This document shows, piece by piece, positions 48,377-48,823 of a stretch of 64,000 bases of DNA. Position numbers and translations under genes: made by a program. The notes beneath the pieces were generated by a model. That model was not told the origin of the DNA, ran no database searches, and saw only the letters and a program-made list of their open reading frames with translations. The stretch comes from Mesorhabditis belari (lineage: Eukaryota; Nematoda; Chromadorea; Rhabditida; Rhabditidae): positions 2,977,001 to 3,041,000 of the forward strand of contig CAUEEP010000732.1 of NCBI GenBank assembly GCA_958450365.1, in the 5' to 3' direction. How positions within the stretch are numbered: the first letter of the stretch is position 1; every line of letters starts with the position of its first letter.

Positions 48377-48823
48377 ATGGCTCGAACAAAGCAAACTTCA
48401 CGCAAAACGTCTGCCGGCAAAGGAGGCAAGCAAGCGGTTACCGGCAAGCAGGCACGTTCCCATCCCCAAGTCGCGACGAAGGCCGCCCGGAAGGGGGCAG
48501 ACAATCCGGCTGGAGGGGTGAAGAAACCACATCGCTACCGACCCGGCACAGTGGCTCTACGCGAAATCCGAAAGTACCAGAAGTCGACCGAATTGCTGAT
48601 GCGTCGTGCTCCATTCCAACGTCTTGTTAAAGAAATTTCGCAGGACTACAAGACTGACCTTCGCTACCAATCCTCTGCGCTGATGGCCCTTCAAGAAGCC
48701 GCTGAAGCGTACCTCGTCGGTCTCTTCGAAGACACCAATCTGTGTGCAATTCATGCCAAGCGAGTTACGATCATGCCGAAAGACATTCAACTTGCCCGAC
48801 GAATTCGGGGTGAACGAGCCTAA
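48377..48823 (+). CDS. Divergent histone H3 variant with an extended N-terminal tail
   Basis: Intronless, 148 codons with Met. From PHRYRPGTVALREIRKYQ to RIRGERA it is a near-canonical H3 histone fold, with changes such as MRRAPF, KEISQDYKTDLRYQ and SALM. The tail is 12 residues longer than canonical H3. It keeps the first residues ARTKQT, with K4, R8, K9 and K14, but A7 is S and S10 is T. Extra sequence (GGKQAVTGKQARSHPQ) follows, and the K27 context is KAARKG, so S28 is replaced. The core is not the H3.3 type (AAIG) but closest to the replication-dependent SAVM type. A histone stem-loop lies 40 bp downstream of the stop and a duplicated GC-box/TATA promoter upstream, which together suggest S-phase expression. 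It is divergently paired with the Argonaute. A germline or pericentromere-specific variant is possible but unproved. Confidence 0.93.
   Translation: MARTKQTSRKTSAGKGGKQAVTGKQARSHPQVATKAARKGADNPAGGVKKPHRYRPGTVALREIRKYQKSTELLMRRAPFQRLVKEISQDYKTDLRYQSSALMALQEAAEAYLVGLFEDTNLCAIHAKRVTIMPKDIQLARRIRGERA

Follow-up and report, generated by a model that had tools for sequence, protein, structure and literature searches.

The window, that is the whole stretch of 64,000 nucleotides of Mesorhabditis belari DNA that was analysed, carries a real, intact and evolutionarily held histone H3 gene with an unusual tail (Table 1). Judged from its sequence, the gene probably encodes a functional, lineage-specific H3 variant of the replication-coupled type. 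The open frame of 447 bases translates to MARTKQTSRKTSAGKGGKQAVTGKQARSHPQVATKAARKGADNPAGGVKKPHR...RIRGERA*. Its product matches the Pfam Histone family with 150.5 bits (cut-off 26.4) and the best H3 chain in the PDB with an E value of 4.2e-64. From KKPHR to the end, 90 of 100 residues are identical to a 136 amino acid H3 of the same genome (L025) in an ungapped alignment. The ten changes are R53K, I62M, K64R, L65A, R72K, A75S, F78Y, F84Y, V89L and S95A, of which all but L65A are conservative in our judgement. The core has the H3-type histone fold and is not in doubt because it is very close to solved H3, and the initial annotation as an H3 variant with a near-canonical fold is upheld.

Table 1. 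Positions of the H3 variant gene and its signals in the window, and of the 137 amino acid H3 genes in their loci
Feature	Position	Strand	Basis or remark
H3 variant coding sequence, intronless, 148 amino acids and stop	48377..48823	+	Open frame, Pfam and PDB matches
KKPHR to end, histone fold included	48521..48820	+	90/100 residues as in 136 amino acid H3; S87-A-L-M90 chaperone motif
Rewritten, expanded stretch G15-P29 (GGKQAVTGKQARSHP) replacing A15-P-R-K18, net +11 residues	48422..48466	+	Gap placement differs between alignments
Possible decayed 18-nt in-frame tandem repeat, GKQAVT / GKQARS, 13/18 bases alike	48425..48460	+	p 0.0026 for an 18-nt unit; only suggestive
Histone 3' UTR stem-loop GGCCCT-CTTT-AGGGCC (Rfam match 48859-48904)	48864..48879	+	RF00032
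Promoter unit, two tandem 42-bp copies (CCCCGCC, GAAG..TTATAA box)	48251..48334	+	
TATA-like box TTATAA, 46 bases before ATG	48331..48336	+	
137 amino acid H3 genes	L014:1297-1707, L015:1062-1472, L016:1416-1826, L017:916-1326		

The tail ahead of KKPHR has 47 residues in the variant and 35 in the 136 amino acid H3 of the genome; the expansion is therefore 12 residues, as first annotated. In addition to the rewritten stretch, one residue is gained at D41-N42; the placement of the tail gaps differs between two alignments. The spacing of K4, K9 and K14 is unchanged, while the K27-like lysine (K38) lies 24 residues from K14 compared with 13 in H3, i.e. 11 further away. The GK motif, found once in the 136 amino acid tail (K14), is found three times in the variant (K14, K17 and K23). 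The expansion had been described as adding Lys and Ser/Thr sites; a gain is present, but the net is only one Lys (7 versus 6) and one Ser/Thr (8 versus 7). With so small a gain over 12 residues and a net charge that stays at +10 in both proteins, the tail is therefore diluted rather than enriched in modifiable residues.

Residue 7 is S where H3 has A, and G39 replaces S28, both as originally read. The third substitution, S10 to T, holds in an ungapped reading, in which T10 follows K9. However, S11 may be the true S10, because in the four 137 amino acid H3 copies one residue is inserted between K9 and S10. The K9-T-S order fits the extra residue, but the distance from K9 to K14 is normal, the ungapped reading is equally good and the two alignments differ. 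Of the altered phosphorylation switches proposed next to K9 and K27, the one at K27 stands, since S28 is clearly lost, but a phospho-acceptor is kept beside K9 in either reading. In the 137 amino acid proteins themselves the extra residue (ARK-A-S-T, ARK-A-S-S or ARK-G-S-A) breaks the ARKS motif and the remainder of the protein is near-canonical.

An origin of the insert by tandem repetition of the 18-nt unit gave p 0.015 when all unit lengths tested were taken together. This is only suggestive because in the same measure the ordinary tail of L017 scores higher (5.0) than the variant (4.6); the ordinary tails of L015 and L014 score 4.1 and 3.3. Duplication of the K18-K27 block as a source of the insert was rejected, being weak at the protein level (p 0.05) and without any signal at the DNA level (p 0.71).

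The genome (207.6 Mb in 714 contigs) gave 67 matches to the core-histone family. The 17 clean H3 copies that were read comprise 11 of 136, four of 137 and two of 148 amino acids. On contigs C546 and C703 the 136 amino acid copies form arrays together with other core-histone matches. The 137 amino acid copies are L014, the allele-like L015 and L016, and L017, and the 148 amino acid copies are the window gene and L009. The window gene is solitary, and some 39.5 kb separate it from the closest other core-histone match; L017, in contrast, lies about 3 kb from two such matches. A minus-strand gene that extends up to about 47990, just upstream of the H3 gene, is Argonaute-like by eye, and a weak match to Argonaute linker 2 at 45857-46270 on the same strand (23.5 bits, cut-off 33.3) was the sole match among 10 frames scanned. 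Elsewhere in the assembly, contig C584 (13,973 bases) is mitochondrial, with the recognised genes, named by eye from the frames, on one strand in the order COX1-ND6-ND4L-ND1-ATP6-COX2-ND3-ND5-ND2-CYTB-COX3-ND4; the COX2-ND3-ND5 block has moved relative to what we take to be the C. elegans order. TTAGGC arrays are numerous: a five-unit pattern matched 2,160 times in forward and 1,385 times in reverse orientation, and on C32 the arrays occur at four separate places. These repeats are consistent with a nematode. The SPRY family shows no expansion, with at least 8 places. The best relative of COX1 stands at 98%, and the best ones that carry a name at 91% (named only to Rhabditida) and 90% (Litoditis). 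In a tree of 34 hand-picked sequences, with a query of about four fifths of COX1 and support values taken after re-rooting, COX1 falls next to the Strongyloides-Rhabditophanes and Aphelenchoides-Bursaphelenchus group, which would perhaps suggest Tylenchina.

The gene is intronless and followed by a histone stem-loop, as is typical of replication-coupled H3. The 3' region, searched as 301 bases, matches RF00032 (Histone3) with an E value of 2e-7; its 31.5 bits fall just below the curated gathering score of 34. A search of the whole window at the gathering threshold listed no more than a tRNA. The stem-loop core, CCCAACGGCCCTCTTTAGGGCCACAA, is identical behind all 17 clean H3 copies, the variant and its allele included, which bears out the histone-type 3' processing signal noted initially. 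Upstream, the GAAG..TTATAA box is present in all six copies of the 137 and 148 amino acid genes (both variant alleles counted) and in none of the 11 copies that encode the 136 amino acid protein, so that by its promoter the variant goes with the 137 amino acid class. The 42-bp promoter unit is found twice in the window haplotype and once in the allele L009 on C550.

The variant is probably derived from, or related to, the four 137 amino acid copies, to judge from the shared promoter box, the lower dS and the nucleotide tree. The dS of the variant is 1.26 to L014, 1.36 to L015 and 2.58 to L017, compared with 5.1 or saturation to the 136 amino acid L005 and L001. The nucleotide tree grouped the variant with the 137 amino acid genes (support 96-100), whereas the codon tree did not and ran the branch of the variant to the limit; because of this conflict the derivation is no more than probable. 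These paralogue comparisons were made without the broken pieces L010, L011 and L019 on C550, without L047 and without L012 and L013, which have no intact N-terminus; L002 is L014 again. With the 137 amino acid genes the variant shares the promoter box, the stem-loop, the lowest synonymous divergence and possibly the K9-X-S motif, but the rest of their tail is normal, with a total of 36 residues in L017. With the 136 amino acid replication-type H3 it shares, besides the last 100 residues, the stem-loop, the TATA and CCCCGCC elements and the S87/M90 type; it differs in its longer tail, in the number of GK motifs, in the loss of S28, in the promoter box and in being solitary and not arrayed.

The H3.3 replacement variant is marked by the motif A87-A-I-G90; residues 87-90 of the window gene product are S-A-L-M, and the variant is not of this type. 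No H3 carrying A-A-I-G turned up at the genomic H3 loci that were read, two weak ones on C551 not among them. H3.3 may be absent from this genome, or may have been missed by the assembly or by our reading.

Over the fold the variant and L014 differ by 42.5 synonymous changes in 75.3 sites and 16.5 nonsynonymous changes in 227.7 sites (dS 1.05, dN 0.076), a synonymous excess with a Fisher p of about 3e-18 on rounded counts with sites taken as independent. The dN of the fold is 0.073-0.086 between the variant and five paralogues, with a dS of about 1 or more, and 0 to 0.036 in six pairs among the other H3 genes. Constraint is here gauged against paralogues alone, with synonymous sites near saturation, because no orthologue with this tail was found. 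By these estimates the variant lineage has undergone more protein change than the other H3 genes, yet it is far from neutral, with the fold conserved by purifying selection. The tail, with about 16.5 nonsynonymous changes to L014 in 36 codons (by difference), has changed faster than the fold.

The allele at C550:1275246 (L009) encodes the same protein and differs in two of the 447 coding bases, both synonymous. The long tail is present in both clean copies of the variant, and chance is not an issue for the long frame because a second contig encodes the same protein. Between the window region and C550 around 1.27 Mb, two aligned blocks, 9.8 and 5.4 kb long, are 99.6% identical and a third, of 4.7 kb, is 97.7% identical; the two regions look like two haplotypes. 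Because the flanking blocks are 99.6% alike, the identity of the allelic proteins adds little as evidence. The DNA of the tail was found at three places in the genome, the window, the allele and L047 (C550:99246). L047 is frameshifted and 94% like the window over the gene; over 8.8 kb its upstream flank shows 162 gap openings besides 220 mismatches, and we did not include L047 among the genes. It represents either noise in the assembly or a third haplotype that was assembled poorly. With about 95% similarity to the window and a great many small gaps, the flank of L047 has the look of assembly noise. Broken H3 copies are found on C550 near 0.1, 0.14, 0.28 and 1.315 Mb (L047, L019, L011 and L010). 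Three H3 genes there mirror C545 in order and spacing, so a third haplotype is possible.

It is improbable that the gene is a decaying or recently formed H3 copy with a functionless, drifting tail. A tail that diverges faster than the fold would fit such a copy, as would the failure to find an orthologue in the protein searches. However, a fold dS of about 1 or more with a dN of 0.07-0.09 to the five paralogues describes an old branch on which amino acids have been held back, and frame, stem-loop and promoter are intact in both clean copies. From these features the gene looks functional and old, and the original assessment that it is not a simple dead copy is supported by the open frame, the fold dN of 0.08 against a dS of about 1, the stem-loop, the promoter and the clean allele. 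An assembly artefact is very improbable: C550 does have noisy stretches with broken H3 copies, but the copies in the window and at C550:1275246 are clean and have the same tail, and the differences between them are like those between alleles.

CENP-A (CenH3) proteins have a strongly diverged fold and a longer loop 1. The tail of the variant is divergent, as might be expected of a centromeric H3, but we consider this identity to have a negligible probability. The last 100 residues are 90% identical to the 136 amino acid H3 without gaps, so the variant has no lengthened loop 1, and a separate CENP-A-like gene, multi-exon and in pieces, is present at L018 on another contig (frames judged by eye). 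There is a modest chance, by analogy with the testis isoforms of Oikopleura, that the gene encodes a gamete- or sperm-specific H3 and not a general S-phase isoform. The solitary position, about 39.5 kb from the nearest other core-histone match, and the 10 differences from the 136 amino acid H3 in the last 100 residues, compared with three for L014, argue for such a specialisation, whereas the sequence contains no sperm-specific feature.

In a full-length search no orthologue of the variant was found among the best 120 of 7,992 proteins scored, and among the matches listed that covered at least 97% of the query the highest identity was 79%. A search with residues 7-52 against 107 candidates gave no match at E up to 10. 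A genome-contig collection gave nine H3 loci; the tail was absent from all seven that were read, and the other two, L037 and L039, start within the gene. A degenerate pattern of the tail had no match in viral contigs. No nematode H3 with such a tail was found in the available text of the open-licence literature. The tail survey covered 121 proteins (the 120 listed and the query), 107 of them with a measurable tail, and with its bias towards high scores it provides examples and not rates. Expansions after K14 that look true are found, among the matches listed, in P0097 (Steinernema hermaphroditum), P0067, P0089, P0099, P0100 and P0101; other long-tailed H3 matches look like retained introns, fusions or repeated fragments. 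P0097 (143 amino acids), P0067 (146), P0101 (140) and P0099 from Harmonia axyridis (139) resemble the variant in having residues added after K14 and a near-canonical fold, but the inserted sequences are different and nothing points to a common origin. The claim that no other H3 has this tail therefore stands for the exact tail in the protein sets searched, but not for expanded H3 tails as such.

Larger H3 proteins are also known from the ciliate Stylonychia, where, in the available text of the paper, H3.7 and H3.8 (20 kDa) exceed the 15-kDa H3 variants and H3.7 is enriched in developing macronuclei (PMC3918171). The residue numbers given there imply that the extra length lies ahead of the fold; in the available text the K4 and K36 motifs are altered too, while both are kept in the variant. 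For Oikopleura the available text describes testis H3t isoforms and splice forms that vary the number of GK motifs in H2A.Z (PMC3156773). Extra H3 isoforms are common to both animals, as is a histone tail in which the GK motifs vary in number, but H3t.3 is there described by substitutions, and the GK variation sits in H2A.Z and arises by splicing. Within the sets searched the exact tail of the variant appears to be new, while larger or expanded H3 tails are already known.

If the variant is a replication-coupled H3, its mRNA would be made in S phase and the 3' end bound by SLBP. CAF-1 and the H3.3 loaders read H3 residues 87-90. The protein would pair with H4 and be loaded by chaperones of the CAF-1 type, since it has Met at position 90 in place of the Gly read by H3.3 loaders. 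In the nucleosome the core would be ordinary and the difference confined to the tail. The lysines of GK motifs are acetylated in H4, and according to the available text of PMC3156773 also in H2A.Z. The three GK motifs of the variant are reminiscent of these acetylated runs. Phosphorylation of S28 opposes the readers of K27 methylation. With S28 gone, no phosphorylation at the adjoining residue could counter methylation of K38. To go by the motifs, the likely outcome would be a subset of chromatin with a different acetylation pattern, on which K27-type marks persist through mitosis. Expression would probably be restricted to a tissue or stage, perhaps germ line or sperm, as in other extra H3 isoforms. 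A rather unlikely, more specific proposal is that a replication-coupled isoform with an acetylation run like that of H4 and H2A.Z, and without the S28 switch, would, through the H3 sequence itself, provide newly replicated chromatin in expressing cells with a platform for acetylation and with a K27-type mark that is insensitive to phosphorylation.

In the H3 tail the segment from K14 to K27 counts among the most conserved protein stretches in eukaryotes. If the variant is selectively kept, it would be a natural test of how important the spacing of marks and the K27/S28 switch are. The gene suggests that replication-type H3 genes, besides H3.3 and CENP-A, diversify in nematodes.
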